35,830 bases of DNA from a virus, in the IMG/VR virus record IMGVR_UViG_3300035680_000040, positions 1 to 35,830 of that record, one strand, 5' to 3'. A program made the position numbers and the translations under genes. Positions 13,896 to 24,600 of the stretch are shown here, one piece after another (the first letter of the stretch is position 1; every line of letters begins with the position of its first letter). Under the pieces are notes generated by a model. The model searched no databases and was not told the origin of the DNA. It worked only from the letters and a program-made list of their open reading frames with translations.

Positions 13896-13923
13896 CTTTG
13901 CTTTTACACTTCAAACGAGAGAG

Positions 13924-13964
13924 TGTCCGAGGGAATCAGCATCCCTCGGACATTTGTTTTTATT
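13924..13964 (+). terminator. Rho-independent terminator of the portal operon
   Basis: TGTCCGAGGGA (13924-13934) and TCCCTCGGACA (13942-13952) form a perfect 11-bp stem with a 7-base loop, followed by a T-rich tract. Confidence 0.85.
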
Positions 13965-13985
13965 TCAATTGTATATTTTTCTGTC

Positions 13986-14003
13986 CGTACAATTTTTTGT
14001 ACG
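13986..14003. promoter_or_regulatory. Operator-like palindrome over the -33 box
   Basis: CGTACAA-TTTT-TTGTACG is a perfect 7-bp inverted repeat with a 4-base centre. It contains the TTTG -33 element of the following promoter, so a protein bound here would block the promoter. Confidence 0.5.
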
Positions 14004-14027
14004 ATAATTAGGAATTTTATATCTTTG
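13996..14027 (+). promoter_or_regulatory. Promoter of the scaffold/coat operon
   Basis: TTTG (13996-13999), 20 bases, TATCTTTG (14020-14027), between the preceding terminator and the scaffold gene at 14048. The leader is about 15 bases. Confidence 0.7.
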
Positions 14028-16538: not shown

Positions 16539-17423
16539 ATGGGACAGAACAATCAGCCGAAACACGGCACAAACGCTGGAAATAACAGCGATAAAAGCCA
16601 AGCAGAATTACCTTTGACAGAGAAGGAGATTCACGACAATTCATTTACAGGTCAAATCGTTATCAATGATAAAGATGGCAAACCTGTTACTATTACCCTC
16701 GAACAACTCCGACAGATTCAGGAAAGCCTTGGTCCGAGAGTTATTCAAGTTGCAGAACAACATAATCGTGTTGCAGAGAAAACTACTGAAAGTACCAATC
16801 CTGAGTTACAATATCGGGTTGAGGATTACCTTGATGAACCCGTAGTATTCTTTTCTTTGCGTAGAGAGTTTATTGATTATGGTTGTTTCGACCACAAAAC
16901 AGGACGATACCACATTCCTCCTTTTAGGGATGAAGGCAAGAATAAAAACGAGAACGGTGAATATCCGGTAAAGCCAATTCACTTCAGATTCTCCTATGCC
17001 GAGAAGGTTGCCAATTACAAATTAGGGGAGTTTAACGACATTCCTTTCTGTACTTATTTCTGTAAGAATCAGAAGGAGTTGGATTACTTGTTGAACCATC
17101 CGAAATTAGGAATTGAGTTCTTCCGTGCGAAAAATGAGATTACCACCACAGATACCATTCGTGGCAGAGCTTTAGCAGATGCAGCCAACGAGGTTGATGT
17201 ATTGCGGAATGATAGCGTAATTGAGAGGTTGCAAAACTTAGGCAAGGAGGTATCTACCGATATGGGTCAGAATAGAAATCAGTTGATTGCTGTTTTGGCT
17301 GACGAAAGATTGAAGCAAGAAGATAAGATTATGGCTAACAACGCAATGCTTAGTAGCGATGGAAAGCGTAAGGCTATCTTCGAAATGGGTTCTAACAAAC
17401 CTGCGGTACACGAGAGAGTATAA
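16539..17423 (+). CDS. Hypothetical virion-operon protein
   Basis: A protein of 294 residues. The N-terminal 30 residues are Asn/Gln/Ser-rich and unstructured; a globular middle follows (YLDEPVVFFSLRREFIDYGC, KPIHFRFSYAEKVANYKLGE); the C-terminal third is helical (RALADAANEVDVLRNDSVIE, NRNQLIAVLADERLKQEDKI). The family is not recognised. Its position between coat and connector-like genes suggests a head-completion or auxiliary capsid role, without direct support. Confidence 0.65.
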   Translation: MGQNNQPKHGTNAGNNSDKSQAELPLTEKEIHDNSFTGQIVINDKDGKPVTITLEQLRQIQESLGPRVIQVAEQHNRVAEKTTESTNPELQYRVEDYLDEPVVFFSLRREFIDYGCFDHKTGRYHIPPFRDEGKNKNENGEYPVKPIHFRFSYAEKVANYKLGEFNDIPFCTYFCKNQKELDYLLNHPKLGIEFFRAKNEITTTDTIRGRALADAANEVDVLRNDSVIERLQNLGKEVSTDMGQNRNQLIAVLADERLKQEDKIMANNAMLSSDGKRKAIFEMGSNKPAVHERV

Positions 17424-17431
17424 ACTAAACT

Positions 17432-18307
17432 ATGATACAGGTACAGACCATTATAGACAGGATGAAGTCGGCTTTAGATGCTGAGGGTAGTGATTACTAC
17501 AATTTCGGCAGGGATTTTAAGCCAGCAATCAACTATGCTTTAGAGTGGTCTGTATCTGTTATTACTCCTTACCTTGGTCAAAAAAAGTTCTCCGAAGAAC
17601 TATTTCGGGAATTGACTTTCAGTAAAATTTGGCAGACAAGTGAGTACAGCAGGGTGAATATCAATCCGGCAGACCTGAACAATAGGGATATTTGGACAAT
17701 TCTTGCTATTTACCCTAAGCCTTATGTAGTTGTTGAAAGTGCTTCTGATTTAATTCCTAATCTTCCAGGTACTTACTACAACGAGATTCAGCCTTATTTG
17801 AATCAGCAGGTTTTTAATGCACCTATTGTTACACAGGCTTGGAACGCCACAGGATTAACTACATTACTTCCACACGAAGGTACATTCAGACCTGAATTAA
17901 GTTTCCTTAGAAGTGATAAAAGTTGCCGTAGAGAGAACCTTGAAAGGTATGCAACTAATAAAGGAAACCCATTTGCACCGGGTAATATTTCCTACAATGA
18001 CGATGTTACCGAATATGTTTATGTAAGTTACATTGATTATACTTCGGTTTATGGAGGTTACAAACTGACTATTCCCAGAGAATTAGAAATTGCACCCTAT
18101 ATTCCCAATGAATTAGTTGCTGTTTTCTACATTCATACTCCTGCTGAGGTAGTTTTAGCAACCGATACTATTCCATTTCCTGCAATTATGATGAATGTTT
18201 TAGTTTCTAAGGCATTGAATTATATCAGTATTAAGCAGAATAACGGCACGAATTTGAGGGGCACAACGGATCAAGAATTACTTTCATTACTTGGGGCAGT
18301 AGAGTAA
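17432..18307 (+). CDS. Head-tail connector / ring-like protein
   Basis: A protein of 291 residues. A helical N-terminus (MIQVQTIIDRMKSALDAEGS, INYALEWSVSVITPYLG) is followed by strand-rich segments and a final helix (MMNVLVSKALNYISIKQNNG). A helix-rich start with 'ALEWSV' and later 'PAEVVLATDTIPFPAIMMNV' resembles the gp4/gp10-like connector proteins of podoviruses, in which 'hxxPxxxxxhhhxxA' packs on the portal. It lies 8 bases after its neighbour. The call rests on order and composition, so it is only moderately sure. Confidence 0.5.
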   Translation: MIQVQTIIDRMKSALDAEGSDYYNFGRDFKPAINYALEWSVSVITPYLGQKKFSEELFRELTFSKIWQTSEYSRVNINPADLNNRDIWTILAIYPKPYVVVESASDLIPNLPGTYYNEIQPYLNQQVFNAPIVTQAWNATGLTTLLPHEGTFRPELSFLRSDKSCRRENLERYATNKGNPFAPGNISYNDDVTEYVYVSYIDYTSVYGGYKLTIPRELEIAPYIPNELVAVFYIHTPAEVVLATDTIPFPAIMMNVLVSKALNYISIKQNNGTNLRGTTDQELLSLLGAVE

Positions 18308-18313
18308 CAGATT

Positions 18314-18604
18314 ATGGCACAGAATCCAAAGCAAGGCATTTTGAAGCGTGTAGGCGTAAGTGGTTTTAACAAGCCTAAGCGTACACCAAGTCATCCAACC
18401 AAAAGCCATGTAGTTGTGGCGAAAGAAGGTGAAAAAGTAAAAACTGTTCGTTTTGGGCAACAAGGAGTAACAGGTGCTGGAAAGAACCCGAAAACTCCTG
18501 CTGAAAAAGCAAGAAAAAAGAGTTACTATGCGAGGCATAATGCCCAAGACCCCAATCCAAGTAAATTATCTGCTCGGTACTGGTCGCACAAGGTCAAGTG
18601 GTGA
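18314..18604 (+). CDS. Small basic conserved phage protein (KTVRFGxxGVTGAG ... KLSARYWSHKVKW)
   Basis: A protein of 96 residues, strongly basic. It contains KVKTVRFGQQGVTGAGKNPK (about 42-61) and a C-terminal block SYYARHNAQ ... KLSARYWSHKVKW (70-96). This pair of motifs, 'VRFGxxGhxxAG' and 'RxxYxARH...hSAxYWxxKxxW', recurs in small proteins in structural regions of many tailed phages, including marine ones, with no settled function. It sits 7 bases after the connector-like gene. An internal, DNA-binding or assembly role is conceivable given the charge. Confidence 0.65.
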   Translation: MAQNPKQGILKRVGVSGFNKPKRTPSHPTKSHVVVAKEGEKVKTVRFGQQGVTGAGKNPKTPAEKARKKSYYARHNAQDPNPSKLSARYWSHKVKW

Positions 18605-18619
18605 TAAAAAAAATCTTCT

Positions 18620-18627
18620 TATATTTG
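18620..18627 (+). promoter_or_regulatory. Candidate promoter (-7 element) of the exported-protein cassette
   Basis: TATATTTG matches the -7 consensus and the leader downstream shares AAGTTCAACTA (18636-18646) with the head-operon leader at 9918-9928. No clean TTTG -33 box lies at the right distance, so the promoter is weaker or differently controlled. Confidence 0.45.
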
Positions 18628-18661
18628 TATTCACAAAGTTCAACTAAAACATATTTCAAAC

Positions 18662-19141
18662 ATGAAAAAAATTCTTTTCCTCCTTTTGACAGCAGTGTTG
18701 CTGTTTGCCTGTGAGCCTTCTACGGCTACTGCACAAAGAACAATTACCTATGAAGTTACCAATGGTTACTTTTTGGTAAAATCAGGAACAACTAAACTGG
18801 TAACTTTATCAGTATTAGACGCAAAAGTCGATACGGTTCAAAGACCTTTGACTTCTTATGATTATACAACTTTGCGATTCACCGGAAATGGTACATTTAT
18901 AAATTTGCGATATTCTCCAACCAATGATACTATTTCAGGTCGTACTGCGGTTCAGGCTCGCAATATTATGAATCAGACTATTAATGCTGCGAAAGGAAAT
19001 TATCTTGGTGCATATAAGAAATCCGAGTTAATTGCCCCTGATACTGCTTTTACAGGTAATTACTACTACGATACCGACACTGCTACTTTTAGATTCAAGA
19101 GAGCAACAGGTGGGTTCCAAAGTATTCAACCTAAGTTTTAA
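18662..19141 (+). CDS. Exported lipoprotein, paralogue A of a tandem pair
   Basis: A protein of 159 residues. The N-terminus MKKILFLLLTAVLLFAC is a classic signal peptide ending in a lipobox (LFAC, Cys17), so the mature protein should be lipid-anchored. The body is Thr-rich and beta-like. The C-terminal half, from YSPTNDTISG through GNYLGAYKK to YYYDTDTATFRF, is matched by the next gene, which also has 159 residues. The ending 'YYYDxDxAxFRxxxxxxGxQSxQ' resembles the terminal motif of phage fibre proteins. Inference: a host-surface moron made from a virion operon, for example in superinfection exclusion. Direct evidence for function is lacking. Confidence 0.65.
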   Translation: MKKILFLLLTAVLLFACEPSTATAQRTITYEVTNGYFLVKSGTTKLVTLSVLDAKVDTVQRPLTSYDYTTLRFTGNGTFINLRYSPTNDTISGRTAVQARNIMNQTINAAKGNYLGAYKKSELIAPDTAFTGNYYYDTDTATFRFKRATGGFQSIQPKF

Positions 19142-19151
19142 TTAACCAACC

Positions 19152-19631
19152 ATGAAAAAACTTCTGTTTTTATCAATATTGCTTGTTTGCGTAGTTTCTG
19201 CGAAGGCACAGTCGTATAACATTCTTAGTTGGGAGTTCAAAAACGACATAATGTTGTTGAAGAGAAGTGGGAATAACCGAGTGTTTTTCAAAAGCAACAT
19301 AATGAACACTTATTTTGGGCCTTGTTACTTAACTTCTATATGTGTATATAATGATAGGGCTTTAACCAATTTGTCATATGCGAGAATTGACTATTCTCCA
19401 CTAAATCCTAACAGGGATACTATAATCGGATACACAAGAGACCAAGCTATTGACTTGTTAAATCAATCTGTAAATGCCAAAAAAGGTAACTATTTGGGTA
19501 ATTATCAGAAAATAGGATTATTTGTTCCTGACACCTCAACAGTTGGTTATTACTACTATGATAAAGACAGTGCATTGTTCAGAGTAAGGACAGAAGCATC
19601 TGGCTGGCAGAGTTTACAGCCTAAGAATTAA
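19152..19631 (+). CDS. Exported protein, paralogue B of a tandem pair
   Basis: A protein of 159 residues. The N-terminus MKKLLFLSILLVCVVSAKAQ is a Sec signal peptide with a predicted signal peptidase I site after AKA (19/20), not a lipobox. The C-terminal ~75 residues align with the upstream gene: YSP, NDTI/RDTI, KGNYLG, PDT, YYYD, FR and QS-QPK are shared in the same order. The N-terminal half has diverged and has two cysteines (SFGPCYLTSICVY-like region). It lies 10 bases after its sister and before a strong terminator. One copy is lipid-anchored and the other soluble or periplasmic. Confidence 0.65.
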   Translation: MKKLLFLSILLVCVVSAKAQSYNILSWEFKNDIMLLKRSGNNRVFFKSNIMNTYFGPCYLTSICVYNDRALTNLSYARIDYSPLNPNRDTIIGYTRDQAIDLLNQSVNAKKGNYLGNYQKIGLFVPDTSTVGYYYYDKDSALFRVRTEASGWQSLQPKN

Positions 19632-19658
19632 GGGTTAATTAGCGTTGCCTTTTGACAG

Positions 19659-19692
19659 AGCCCGGAGGATTGATGACCTTCGGGCTTTTTTT
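19659..19692 (+). terminator. Rho-independent terminator of the exported-protein cassette
   Basis: AGCCCG (19659-19664) and CGGGCT (19681-19686), with AGG/CCT continuing the stem across a bulge on each side, followed by a T run. It separates the cassette from the tail genes. Confidence 0.8.
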
Positions 19693-19693
19693 A

Positions 19694-19727
19694 TTTGTCC
19701 TATTTAATATACAATTTCGTATCTTTG
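19694..19727 (+). promoter_or_regulatory. Promoter of the tail-stub operon
   Basis: TTTG (19694-19697), 22 bases, TATCTTTG (19720-19727). The spacer is a little long. The ATG at 19732 is only 4 bases past the -7 box, so the mRNA is expected to be leaderless or nearly so. Confidence 0.5.
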
Positions 19728-19731
19728 GGGT

Positions 19732-20508
19732 ATGGCTGGATACACATATAGGGAGGTTGTCTATGATATTTGGCAATCCCTAAAACAGAATTTTGACGAT
19801 GGAGAACTGACCTTAGCACAGGTTTTGTACCATGTAAGCGTAAGTGCTAACAGGTTGAAATATCAGCATTTAAACAATGAATTAAAGGATTCAAGCACAA
19901 TTGGAGGCGATTATTTAAGGGTATATTCTAATATTCCTATTCAATCTCAAAGCACATCAAGCAATCCGAATGTAATTAAGAATCAAAAATATATCATCCT
20001 TCCTGCGAGAATAATTGACCTGCCGAGGGATGGAGGAATAAAGTACATTACTTATGACCATTTAGACCCAAATTGTTGTTATGGCCCAAATCAGGTGAAT
20101 TTTACAAGAACTACACCGGGTTTTGGAATTCAGAGGTTATATGGAAATGAGTATGAAAAACCGAGCGAAGCCAATCCGTATTTCTATGTAGTTGAGGACG
20201 AAAGTGGAAATGGGGTACGGATTTATTTATTGGGCTTAGAATGTAGTAGTATTGCTAAGTTGCAGATAGGGTGTTATGCCTATACTACTGCTGCTGACAT
20301 TAAAAGCCTTGATGATATTCTTGATTTGCCGGAACACCTGATTGAGGTATTGAAATACAATGTAATCAGCCTTGGTAAGTTTGTATTAGCAACGATTAGT
20401 GATAATATTAACGATGGGCAGAATACACTTTCGGCTGAAAGTGGATTAAGTCGTGCTGACCAATTGTATCAGCAACAAGTTACACAACAATTACAGGGAG
20501 GTAATTAA
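19732..20508 (+). CDS. Ring/tail-stub protein-like
   Basis: A protein of 258 residues. The N-terminus is helical (MAGYTYREVVYDIWQSLKQN, LTLAQVLYHVSVSANRLKYQ), the centre strand-rich with YIILPARIIDLPRDGGIKYI, and the C-terminal part helical with LPEHLIEVLKYNVISLGKFV. This layout, with a 'LP..ll.li....i..l...' end, fits the ring and tail-adaptor proteins that stack under the portal in short-tailed phages. The next gene is similar in architecture. Family not proven by eye. Confidence 0.5.
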   Translation: MAGYTYREVVYDIWQSLKQNFDDGELTLAQVLYHVSVSANRLKYQHLNNELKDSSTIGGDYLRVYSNIPIQSQSTSSNPNVIKNQKYIILPARIIDLPRDGGIKYITYDHLDPNCCYGPNQVNFTRTTPGFGIQRLYGNEYEKPSEANPYFYVVEDESGNGVRIYLLGLECSSIAKLQIGCYAYTTAADIKSLDDILDLPEHLIEVLKYNVISLGKFVLATISDNINDGQNTLSAESGLSRADQLYQQQVTQQLQGGN

Positions 20509-20510
20509 TT

Positions 20511-21275
20511 ATGGAATGGAGCGATAGAATTACTGCTGACGATATTATTTCTGAAGTAAGTATGATGCTTGATGATGCAGATTTACAGAGGGGATTAAGT
20601 CGTGGGTACTATATGAATAGTGTTCAAAGGGCTTATGAGGATTTGAATTTGCAATCGTTCATGACTATTCTTACTAAGGATATTCCCTTGGTTCCTGGTA
20701 GGTTTACTTTGGATATGCCTTCTGATAGTTTCAATATTCGTGAAATGTATTTGCATAATGGCGTATGTTGTCAGCCTGGAAGTGAAATGGCTGTTGTGCA
20801 TTGGAAGAGGTTGTATAACAATAGCCAAGGTGGTCCTGGATATACTGCTTTAGTAAAAGACAATCAGGCACAGGATTACTACTACAATGCAGGTGGACAG
20901 GGGTTCGATATTCAGAGTACAGGGTTTACTACTTACTTTGCCAATATTGAGAATAGACTGATAATGCTTAGTAGTCCTTCTTTGGAGTTCAAGTATTTGA
21001 GGTTAGTTTATAATAGCCTTGGAGGTGAGATAGGTTCTACCATTGAGATTCCGAGAGTAGTTAGGGAGTGCATTACTTTAATGACTGCAAAGCGTGTCTG
21101 TAAGGCATTATTAGCGAGGGATGAAAAGAAGTACCGGACTATATATCAAACGATAGTAGGCGACCTTGACGACCCAAGAGAAGGGGCATTAGCAAGGGCT
21201 AAAGTGTTTCTTGTCAGAATGGGAACATGGAAGCGTAATGAGTTTAATTTGAACAACGAAACCTCAAAGTATTAA
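20511..21275 (+). CDS. Tail tubular / adaptor protein-like
   Basis: A protein of 254 residues starting 2 bases after its neighbour, with GGGAGG upstream of the ATG. N-terminal helices (MMLDDADLQRGLSRGYYMNS, RAYEDLNLQSFMT) precede a strand-rich core with PSDSFNIREMYLHNGVC and YLRLVYNSLGGEIG. C-terminal helices follow (IEIPRVVRECITLMTAKRVC, KYRTIYQTIVGDLDD). 'LDMP.D...I.EMYL.NG' then 'IPRV...CI..M.A' is the kind of order seen in podovirus adaptor/ring proteins. Position just before the long tail-stub gene supports it. Confidence 0.55.
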   Translation: MEWSDRITADDIISEVSMMLDDADLQRGLSRGYYMNSVQRAYEDLNLQSFMTILTKDIPLVPGRFTLDMPSDSFNIREMYLHNGVCCQPGSEMAVVHWKRLYNNSQGGPGYTALVKDNQAQDYYYNAGGQGFDIQSTGFTTYFANIENRLIMLSSPSLEFKYLRLVYNSLGGEIGSTIEIPRVVRECITLMTAKRVCKALLARDEKKYRTIYQTIVGDLDDPREGALARAKVFLVRMGTWKRNEFNLNNETSKY

Positions 21276-21281
21276 TAGGAT

Positions 21282-21647
21282 ATGCCATTACAATCAACAA
21301 ATAGCGATTTAGTGTGTTTAGGCACATTGAGCATCAAAGAAAATACCGTTGAAATATGGTGCGATAAACTGCAAGTAGAGCCACCGTTTATAAAAATCAA
21401 TGGAATTGTTTGTGCAAAAAACCATGAATTGCCTATTAATATTAGCGACAAAGTTGAATTTATGGGTGATGATGTTTGTTTCGGTGGGGCACTTCTCATT
21501 ACCAACAATAAAACTCCACCTGTTCTCTTAAATATTCAAGACATGATAGACAACAGAACAACAGTTAATCGTTCTGAAAAATATTTCAATGATTTTGAAA
21601 TTAACAGGTACAGTGTTTATGTAACAAACGAATTTAAAAATCTTTAA
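21282..21647 (+). CDS. Stand-alone copy of an N-terminal domain of the next (tail-stub) protein
   Basis: A protein of 121 residues, alignable over about 100 residues with residues ~90-195 of the protein encoded at 21651: CLGT..VK...VE.WCD.LQ..PPF / APF, I.G.I..A...LPI.I, C.GG....T.N.T.P..LN.QDMID, EKYF..F...RY. Roughly 45% of positions are identical. Both genes start in the same context, ATATGCCATTAC, giving MPL. It thus looks like a duplicate that kept the start and one domain and lost the ~85 residues between. It could be an assembly chaperone, a subunit that competes with the long protein, or a recombination remnant kept by selection. Confidence 0.75.
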   Translation: MPLQSTNSDLVCLGTLSIKENTVEIWCDKLQVEPPFIKINGIVCAKNHELPINISDKVEFMGDDVCFGGALLITNNKTPPVLLNIQDMIDNRTTVNRSEKYFNDFEINRYSVYVTNEFKNL

Positions 21648-21650
21648 GAT

Positions 21651-24600
21651 ATGCCATTACCGATACATAATCAGAAGGGAACGGAGATAGATGTAAAAGC
21701 CTTTAACAAAGGTGCTTCATATAGCATTGACGAGCAGTTCCTTGGGCAGTCAGATTCAGGTATGTATATTGATGCCGAGAATATGCGACCAACGGGGCTT
21801 AATGCTGATGAAATGGCATTGTCAAGAATTAGCGGAGAGGAGATTGAGTATATTTCTGAGGATAATAGTTGTAATAGTTACTATGGTGCAACATTCATCA
21901 ATGGTGCATGGAGATGCTTAGGTACAATATTTGTCAAAGGAAAGATTGTTGAGTTGTGGTGCGATGAATTACAAACACTTGCTCCATTTATTCGTATTGA
22001 CGGCATTATTTACGCTGCAAGTCCACAACTACCAATTGACATAGATTATCCTATTCAGTTCCATTGGAATAATACCTGCCTTGGTGGGGAGATTTATCTT
22101 ACCGATAACAGAACTGCACCTATTATCCTGAATGTTCAGGATATGATAGATTCAAGCGAGCCTGTTTGTACGGAGAAATACTTTACTGAATTCGACAGAA
22201 GAAGGTATGAGGTAAATACACAGATGCCTCCACACATGATGTCGTTTGTTGAACTTACTCCAAGTCCGGGCTATCCTGCTGATAAAGTAATTGGTTCCGT
22301 AGGACTGAAAGTAGGTATGTATTCTTACTCGTTTCGGTATGTAACGACAAGTGGGGATAGAACTGCATGGACAAATGTTACTCCGACAATTCCTGTACCT
22401 GTTCAGATAAATACAAATAGCGGTCAATATCCGAGTATTAAGACTTATGGTGCTGACCCAAATACTCAAACAGGATATGGAATTGTACTTAATTTCAGGA
22501 TTCAGAATGAACTTGGGTATGACTACATTGAAATTAAGCGTTATTCGTACAATACAGGTGTTCCCGTAGGTTTTACTCCGAGTGCAGAACTTATAGGCAC
22601 ATTGGGATTAGTTGATGGCGAAAATGTAGTAAAGTATATCGTTGACTTTGGTGCAGTTGGAGAACCTATTACCGATGAAGATGATACCGTTCAGTATGGA
22701 CCTATTGAAGCTTGTAAGACTTTAAGGTACTTTGAGAATAGGTTACACCTTATGAATGTAAGGTATGCCTCGATGGATTTTACTCCGACATTCGTAAGCA
22801 ATGGGCGACCAAACTTATTCCCTGTAATGGCACCGCTTGGTATTGTTGGGTACAATGATGCCTATTACACTACTTATTATCGTAGTTTATTTAGGGGTGA
22901 GAAGTACGGCTTCGGAGTAGGTTTTTGGAATACTTTAATGGGGCAAAGTTTTGCTACGCCTGTTACGGGTTTTACAAATTATCAATTGCCTGACAGAAGA
23001 GATACTGCAAGTGCTGATACACAAACTTATAGTTATACTACTCTGCCAAGGGCTTCTGTTTATCAGACAAATAGCGATGATTTTTGCCACGAAACATATA
23101 GTTTAGTCAATGCCGTAACAAAGAATGATTGTTGCAGTTTTAAGAATATTGCTTGCGATGGGCAAAAACAAGACGGAGGAATTTTAACCTGCGATGGTAA
23201 TGAGGGCATAACTAATATGCCGGCTTTCTGCGGTTGTGGTTCTGTTTCGAATCCAACACAGGCTGTTGATATAGGATATCAACCATTAACTCCAATAAGT
23301 GAACGAGACCCAAGCGTAACCGGACACGATTATGTAATAAATACAAGGGTTCAGAATGATTGCAGTTCACTTGCGGATTTTCACCCTGCTGGTTTTGCAC
23401 CTGAATATTTCGCTTTAGGAGTTGCATTAAATGGTATTGATGACAGTCTTTTGCCTTCATATATTCAGGCATTTTCAATCCTTAGAACTAAACCTGCTGG
23501 CAGAGTTGTGTTTCAAGGCATAGGTGGTTACTATCTTTATCCGAATCCGAGTGGCAATGCAACAGACCCTGCATATAAAGCAACGGATAAATTATGGTTT
23601 TATAGTTTCGAAGCAAGTGCAAGGTCTGGTCTTATTTCTCAACAGGTAATTAATGAAATTGGTAACAATGTAAGTTCAAGGTATGAGGCTCAATTAGTTT
23701 CACCGGTTGGTATATTCCCTGAAGTTCCGCATGGAGAAAATAGAACAGGGCTTCAAGAAGACCATATTGATATGTGTTTGTATCCGAGATTCTATGAGGA
23801 TAACGCAACAATAAACCTTACTCCTGACCCTACGAGTACAGGTGGGTATGTTCAATTTGGTAAATGGAGAAATGCCGGCTTTCCGGGATGGGAAGCAAAT
23901 TTGAATATAAACAGAGCAAGTTTTGGATTAAATGAGTTCAGAAGTGCCAATAATTCAGGAACAGACACAAGTGGTATTGGTAATGAGTATTTAGGCGACA
24001 GAGGAAATCAATTCTTTGTTTTAGGTACAAGTACGGCTGTTTATAATGTTCAATCAGTTGGTTCAAACGCTTGTGATAACAAATACCCAAGTGCTGACCT
24101 AAAAAGCTTTCACGAACCTTGGTATAATATCAATATCATTGATACACTTGCGAATATTCCTGCTACTGATGTAACTACCTATTTTGATACAGGTGCATAT
24201 CAGAAACTAAGGTCTTGGGTAGGAACATACACACCTTCTACTACATTTTTTATACTTGCAGGTGATGAAAGATGGGAGGATATTAGACCTTGGACACCGA
24301 ACAATATTCTGACAGGAACAGTTACTGAGGTTAATGCGAATACCATTAATAGCATTATTCAGATTGAAAAACCTGATGGAACCGTTGAATATTACCTAAA
24401 TGTAGATGGCGTTGGTGCAGGTGCCGTTGCTGCTCTGTCTGCATTGTTGCCATTTACAATTGGTGCCGGTGCGACAAGTAAGCCCAATGTAACAATTTCA
24501 GGTCTTTATGGAACTACCCTTGCGACTACACCTTATCCAAGGATATACTCAATTGTGTTCAATGCAGGTTCAACACCCGTTACAGGTAGCAAGGTTATTA

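Follow-up and report, generated by a model that had tools for sequence, protein, structure and literature searches.

A tandem pair of predicted exported paralogues between the virion genes of an IMG/VR virus, with a possible role in blocking re-infection from inside the host envelope

What do two small and apparently exported proteins do that a phage encodes in the middle of its virion genes? This question is raised by two open reading frames (ORFs) on the plus strand of the virus record IMGVR_UViG_3300035680_000040, which was analysed as a whole (35,830 bases; the window). P1 (18662..19141) and P2 (19152..19631) are ORFs of 159 amino acids each. P1 comprises a predicted signal peptide, an N-terminal domain and a C-terminal half that it has in common with its paralogue P2, which also has a predicted signal peptide, with AKA-Q and no lipobox. 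By BLASTP, 65 of 164 positions were identical in the two proteins (40%, E 6e-32), and 25 of the 73 columns of the C-terminal part were invariant in an alignment of nine sequences comprising P1, P2 and their relatives. The tandem 159-residue paralogues with a conserved C-terminal half that had been described in an earlier, sequence-only reading of this DNA were thus recovered.

The pair is flanked by the gene of a basic protein of 96 amino acids (18314-18604) and by a gene for 258 amino acids (19732), which is probably the connector. The surrounding module includes a portal protein (PHROG 6547, E 6e-27) and a protein of 413 amino acids (15210) that is taken as the major capsid protein from its position, and for which the Pfam and PHROGs searches gave no family match. 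ORF 20511 is possibly an SU10-type adaptor (E 8e-4, under the Pfam cut-off). Membership of the crAss-like group is not claimed: Pfam CrAss_Ring_2 matched ORF 19732 at E 0.018 only, and the search of the whole record gave no match at E 1.

Export signals were predicted with a crude rule that combines N-terminal charge, a hydrophobic core and either a lipobox or [AVST]xAQ. The rule was applied to the 35 non-overlapping window ORFs of at least 50 amino acids and to eight other stretches. In the window it was passed by P1 and P2 only (2/35). In the other stretches it was passed by the relatives of P1 and P2, by one more lipoprotein (L043) and by two candidates that are probably false, namely an antisense ORF in L049 and an internal start in L041. 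The N-terminus of P1 reads MKKILFLLLTAVLLFAC-EPSTATA-Q. LLFAC is a permissible lipobox; in P1 it contains Cys17 and is followed by an ATAQ site with Gln25. The N-terminus of P2, MKKLLFLSILLVCVVSAKA-Q, contains AKA-Q and has no [AGS]C at the place of the lipobox. The lipobox Cys was found in every aligned P1 and in no aligned P2. Signal peptides on both proteins and a lipobox in P1 alone had been claimed before, and this holds with the correction that P1 carries ATAQ as well.

In Capnocytophaga, Bacteroides and Flavobacterium, lipoproteins of the cell surface are described with export signals of the C-X-K-(D/E)2-X, SDDDD or SDDFE type, the residues of which are only partly conserved even in the reported cases (PMC5080379). 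These three published Bacteroidota signals were absent after the Cys of P1, where the sequence reads CEPSTATAQ or CEPSVKAQ; the signal of the true host may differ. P1, if lipidated, is therefore probably periplasm-facing, and such an anchor was used as the default guess. A periplasm-facing protein that works from inside fits better than the remodelling of the outer surface that had been suggested.

The N-terminal half of P2 differed strongly between otherwise similar genomes. When the window was compared with contig L004 per 100 bases, identity was 92-99% at 17450-18449 and 94-100% at 19450-21249, and it was 96-99% in P1 except for one stretch of 81%. In the N-terminal half of P2 (19150-19449) it was 51-81%. 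For the P2 N-domain pN was 0.33 and pS 0.87 (saturated), versus a pS of 0.19 in the C-terminal part of the same gene. Between the window and contig L003 there were zero differences in 61 codons of the P2 N-domain, with a pS of 0.16 in the P2 C-terminal part and of 0.19 in the next gene; L003 and L004 were 91-100% identical across P1. From these identity and pS values, the N-terminal half of P2 is best read as having been replaced between genomes by recombination and not by gradual drift, while the C-terminal half was conserved. A diversity-generating retroelement was considered for the N-domain; the gaps and the many synonymous changes fit recombination better. As dN/dS was below 1 for every gene compared (1268-1275 codons of the 1535-aa gene were present in the loci), positive selection is not claimed. 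Variation comparable to that of the P2 N-domain was seen in the 96-aa gene and, in patches, along the 1535-aa gene.

A lambda-type moron is a unit between virion genes that is equipped with a promoter and a terminator of its own, and P1 and P2 had been regarded as a unit of this kind. Like such morons, the unit is bounded by a promoter-like box and a terminator. The pattern TAnnTTTG, which we take to be the Bacteroidota-type -7 promoter box, is matched by TATATTTG (18620..18627, plus strand) 42 nt upstream of P1, and this box was identical in 6/6 aligned sequences (the window and five relatives). In the window the pattern occurred 55 times versus 43.5 expected, a number reached in 2 of 100 shuffles. 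It was located 8-60 nt upstream of six of 25 gene starts, which were our choice of plausible starts, versus 1.2 expected (P 0.003, 20,000 circular shifts). Downstream of P2, an intrinsic terminator is formed by a 12-bp stem and a subsequent T-run (19657..19688, plus strand). Its stem sequence is altered in distant relatives, yet it folded in all four alleles that were folded, at -17.1 to -20.3 kcal/mol. As sequence signals, the candidate promoter and the strong terminator amid the structural genes were confirmed. Six terminator-like sites were counted at 17000-22000 versus 3.0 in shuffles; elsewhere in the scan the counts were not above those of the shuffles.

After the terminator, a further box (TATCTTTG, 19720..19727, plus strand) was kept as TA(T/A)CTTTGGGGTATGG in 6/6 aligned sequences and possibly marks a restart of transcription. 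Only 12 nt separate it from the ATG of the 258-aa structural gene; either the message is leaderless, or the true start is further in. No terminator was detected in the scan between the 96-aa gene and P1, so that read-through into P1 and P2 is possible. Another terminator-like site (13921-13955, 14-bp stem) is followed by TATCTTTG at 14020-14027 and precedes a gene for 382 amino acids. Internal transcription boundaries are therefore not peculiar to P1 and P2, and this second junction in the late region is a difference from lambda-type morons. Given possible read-through and other internal boundaries, the P1/P2 unit is not proof of a late-inserted moron.

The distribution of the genes also bears on their origin. 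Scans of IMG/VR located P1 on seven contigs: L001 and L002, which show no difference from the window over 12.5 kb, L003, L004, and the more distant relatives L015, L016 and L017, which have P1 only. P1 of L015 stops at a TAA four residues earlier (150 versus 154 residues in L016 and L017). P2 was present on four of the seven site-spanning contigs (L001, L002, L003 and L004). With the portal as query, 13 loci were located on 12 contigs, seven of which are the P1 contigs already found; the other five are uninformative because each ends before the P1/P2 site. The scan of the viral collection with the 413-aa protein gave nine loci on eight contigs, all of them known already. No empty site was seen among the seven site-spanning contigs, which sample few lineages. 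With P1 in 7/7 contigs and P2 in 4/7, the simplest histories are that one lineage gained P2 through a duplication of P1 or that the other lineage lost it, and the data do not decide between them. The G+C content of P1 (0.371) and P2 (0.346) was below the mean of 22 genes (0.397, sd 0.030) by 0.9 and 1.7 sd, respectively. At third positions it was 0.275 in P1, the lowest of the 22 genes, and 0.356 in P2 (mean 0.348, sd 0.042). P1 and P2 may also differ from lambda-type morons in the lack of a visible empty site and in their modest difference in composition. Of the moron claim, the unit's own promoter and terminator signals stand, and it is weakened by the presence of P1 in all seven contigs, by the modest G+C offset and by the second junction at 13921-14027.

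P1 and P2 were compared to Pfam, PHROGs, NCBIfam, PADLOC, PDB sequences and named phages, and no match was above a curated cut-off or had a convincing E-value. The named phages contained no relatives of either protein (rows at E 1 or higher), and the PADLOC search returned no exclusion family. The nearest matches were set aside as weak: PHROG 902, of unknown function (E 0.0055, P1 residues 1-45), NCBIfam GLPGLI (E 0.0027, residues 2-146, 17.5 bits versus a cut-off of 50), and PHROG 26854, which was matched by two of nine mature forms (E 0.035). P1 and P2 are a genuine orphan family with few known members.

By analogy with Llp of phage T5, we tentatively propose that P1 and P2 are a pair of envelope proteins which prevent re-infection from the inner side. 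An uncultivated phage of a probable Bacteroidota host would make both as exported, envelope-located proteins, P1 most likely lipid-anchored and periplasm-facing, and P2 as a soluble paralogue in the periplasm or secreted. The proteins would bind an outer-membrane receptor or another envelope target from inside. With this target blocked, related phages could not adsorb or inject, and progeny would not be stuck to debris. By having a lipid-anchored and a soluble copy with an exchangeable domain, the phage could deal with two receptors or with two states of a receptor. We infer this function, together with host phylum, timing, lipidation, location and partner, from what can be read directly in the DNA, that is, the ORFs, their paralogy, the conserved signal peptides, lipobox and transcription signals, and the replaced N-terminal half of P2.

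Llp is described as a periplasmic lipoprotein of T5 that alters the receptor from inside (PMC9586334). For T5-like phages it is reported that the gene of the receptor-blocking lipoprotein adjoins the receptor-binding gene, that the T5 and BF23 versions are non-homologous, and that mosaic exchange takes place near llp (PMC4728585), to which the replacement of the P2 N-terminal half may be compared. P1, a predicted lipoprotein whose gene lies among virion genes, resembles Llp of T5 and BF23 in this respect; the periplasm-facing position shown for T5 is proposed for P1. With a cut at Cys17, the mature form of P1 would have about 143 residues, over twice the 61 Llp residues compared (PMC9586334). 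In contrast to Llp, P1 is followed by a soluble-type paralogue, and candidate fibre-type genes, recognized by eye, lie about 17-18 kb downstream of P1 and P2 and not adjacent to them. Llp was set beside P1 by description; the comparison of sequence models covered the Cor exclusion lipoproteins (PHROG 1119, NF047972). Like P1, these are small phage proteins with a lipobox signal peptide. The matches were below cut-off: PHROG 1119 matched P1 in the signal peptide only (residues 1-35, E 0.073), and NCBIfam NF047972 matched P1 of L016 over a short stretch (E 0.15, 12 bits versus a cut-off of 31).

Exported proteins encoded in the virion gene regions of phages are candidate receptor blockers, and the receptor-blocking lipoproteins compared with P1 above, Llp of T5 and BF23 as well as Cor, come from enterobacterial phages. 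If the proposal is true, a conserved lipoprotein beside a paralogue with a swapped domain would suggest that the blocking strategy arose independently in a probable Bacteroidota phage, and the variable domain of P2 would be a handle on the receptor. The pair might even be an exchangeable blocker in two formats and a new family unrelated to Llp, Cor and the other exclusion proteins known, in a phage group without any named member among the phages searched, with one lipid-anchored and one diffusing copy, the N-domain of the soluble copy being swapped by recombination to follow changing receptors and the C-terminal half remaining constant; in this extended form the idea is quite improbable. Titles and abstract openings of the literature searched described no such exported pair, which is no proof of its absence from print.

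P1 and P2 could also serve many other envelope tasks, such as altered uptake by the host, blocking of an envelope-based defence, or stabilization of the envelope until lysis. The same export signals and the same conservation would apply to such tasks, and the family searches gave no pointer to exclusion specifically. However, a replaced N-terminal half beside virion genes is more reminiscent of a matched recognition part than of a general function, which is suggestive only. Such tasks, although somewhat doubtful in themselves, are nearly as likely as a block of re-infection, and for this reason the latter is put forward no more firmly than above.

A different alternative concerns the processing of the two proteins and is compatible with any of the other readings. 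As P1 carries ATAQ besides its lipobox, it may be cut by signal peptidase I at this site; both proteins would then be soluble products of signal peptidase I, and the Cys of P1 would be incidental. In 9/9 aligned proteins, [AV]xAQ (five AxAQ, four VxAQ) was located ahead of the mature domain, a pattern that matches the Q-rule given for signal peptidase I substrates of Bacteroidetes (PMC5837995), and like these substrates all nine have Gln right after the predicted cut; P1 differs from them by the extra lipobox upstream of the Gln site. The Cys and its context ACEPS, however, were retained in 8/8 P1 genes (the window and seven contigs) down to 50-54% identity, and we consider it unlikely that both proteins are soluble. 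For the phage itself, the promoter type and the Gln site point to a probable Bacteroidota host. Two scans of genome contigs, with alignments of the pair and of the portal, detected no relative in host genomes, and the host assignment is therefore drawn from these two features.

P1 and P2 could further be virion-associated mini-fibres or decorations, either with a hydrophobic tail in place of the supposed signal peptide or as exported proteins that are picked up by virions at lysis. Their place among the structural genes favours this, and one comparison of predicted folds seemed to do so as well. The AlphaFold (AF2) prediction for P1, with nine sequences as input, resulted in two fair models (mean pLDDT 67-68) and three poor ones (37-39). 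Residues 25-111, approximately, were modelled fairly, as beta strands and a helix, and the C-terminal part poorly; block means of pLDDT were 76-91 (residues 21-60), 65 (61-70), 80-88 (71-110) and at most 53 beyond. The P2 model was unusable (mean pLDDT 36). Foldseek retrieved no BFVD or PDB row at E 0.001 or lower with the P1 model. The sole BFVD row with E below 0.01 was a 343-aa protein of Tenacibaculum phage Gundel_1 (E 5.8e-3), which we take to be Gundel1_88 from its length, a fibre-like protein because of its collagen-like repeats. The TM score of this row was only 0.32 (rmsd 10.7), however, and comparison of the P1/P2 profile with Gundel1_88 gave no match (probability 0.1), so that the row is a lead to a fibre link and not a result. 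PDB fold rows for the P1 model (E 0.095 or higher) and PH/PTB-like rows of VIA-align (residues 25-113, approximately; Z 6.8 or lower, within the stated background) were not counted as evidence.

The P1/P2 profiles had no other significant match in the eight records searched, and against six-frame translations of 13 stretches, including the tail genes of the relatives, the next best E was 0.3. A likeness of the YYYD..FR ends to phage fibre motifs had been noted before; it was not borne out by the profiles, which had no significant match to tail genes of the phage group, PDB, Pfam or PHROGs. Moreover, a conserved lipobox and [AV]xAQ are not expected in a cytoplasmic virion part, and a place of P1 and P2 in the virion appears distinctly unlikely. 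A lysis factor, with P1 as the spanin subunit of the outer membrane or as another protein that disrupts this membrane, is the least probable explanation. In its favour, P1 is a predicted phage lipoprotein, and its gene has the same orientation as the virion genes. Against it, no adjacent ORF resembles a membrane-anchored inner-membrane partner (by eye), spanin pairs do not include a soluble paralogue, and membrane-anchored lysin-like candidates (L043:14402-14848 and L039:8488-8928, by eye) as well as a DUF5675 gene, another likely lysis gene (L038:16939-17421), are located elsewhere.

Several observations were made on other genes of the phage group. The basic 96-aa protein belongs to PHROG 7595, with 58 records in named phages, and reaches 75% identity with hypothetical proteins from phages of Roseobacter, Puniceispirillum, Synechococcus and Aeromonas. 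For the 413-aa, portal and 291-aa proteins no significant relative was found in named phages, and the terminase had one partial match. The C-terminal half of the 96-aa gene in the window differs from L003 and L004. This gene looks like one that moves widely between aquatic phages. In the distant relatives, one to three extra small basic genes are located around it (L015, 6266-7402; L016, 7000-7389; L017, 6254-7390), which marks this site as one where genes are gained and lost.

A 121-aa ORF (21282-21647) is similar to a portion of the N-terminal region of the next gene, which encodes 1535 amino acids; it is absent from L003, L004 and L015-L017 and was judged by eye to be a partial tandem duplication. 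Within the 1535-aa gene, identity between genomes that are otherwise alike is low in three patches (21850-22050, 22950-23250 and 24250-24550), which are candidate host-contact regions. Gundel1_87 of phage Gundel_1 (L061:17341-17988) adjoins the lysin and combines a membrane segment at its N-terminus with a charged coil; by eye, it resembles an inner-membrane spanin. A PEGA-domain protein of 129 amino acids with a lipobox (L043:13406-13792, minus strand, E 3.5e-10) is possibly another phage lipoprotein of the same phage group. In IMGVR_UViG_3300047094_001400 (L045, L049), the first 4,558 bases are repeated at the end with 99.96% identity, and this genome is therefore probably complete at about 65.9 kb.
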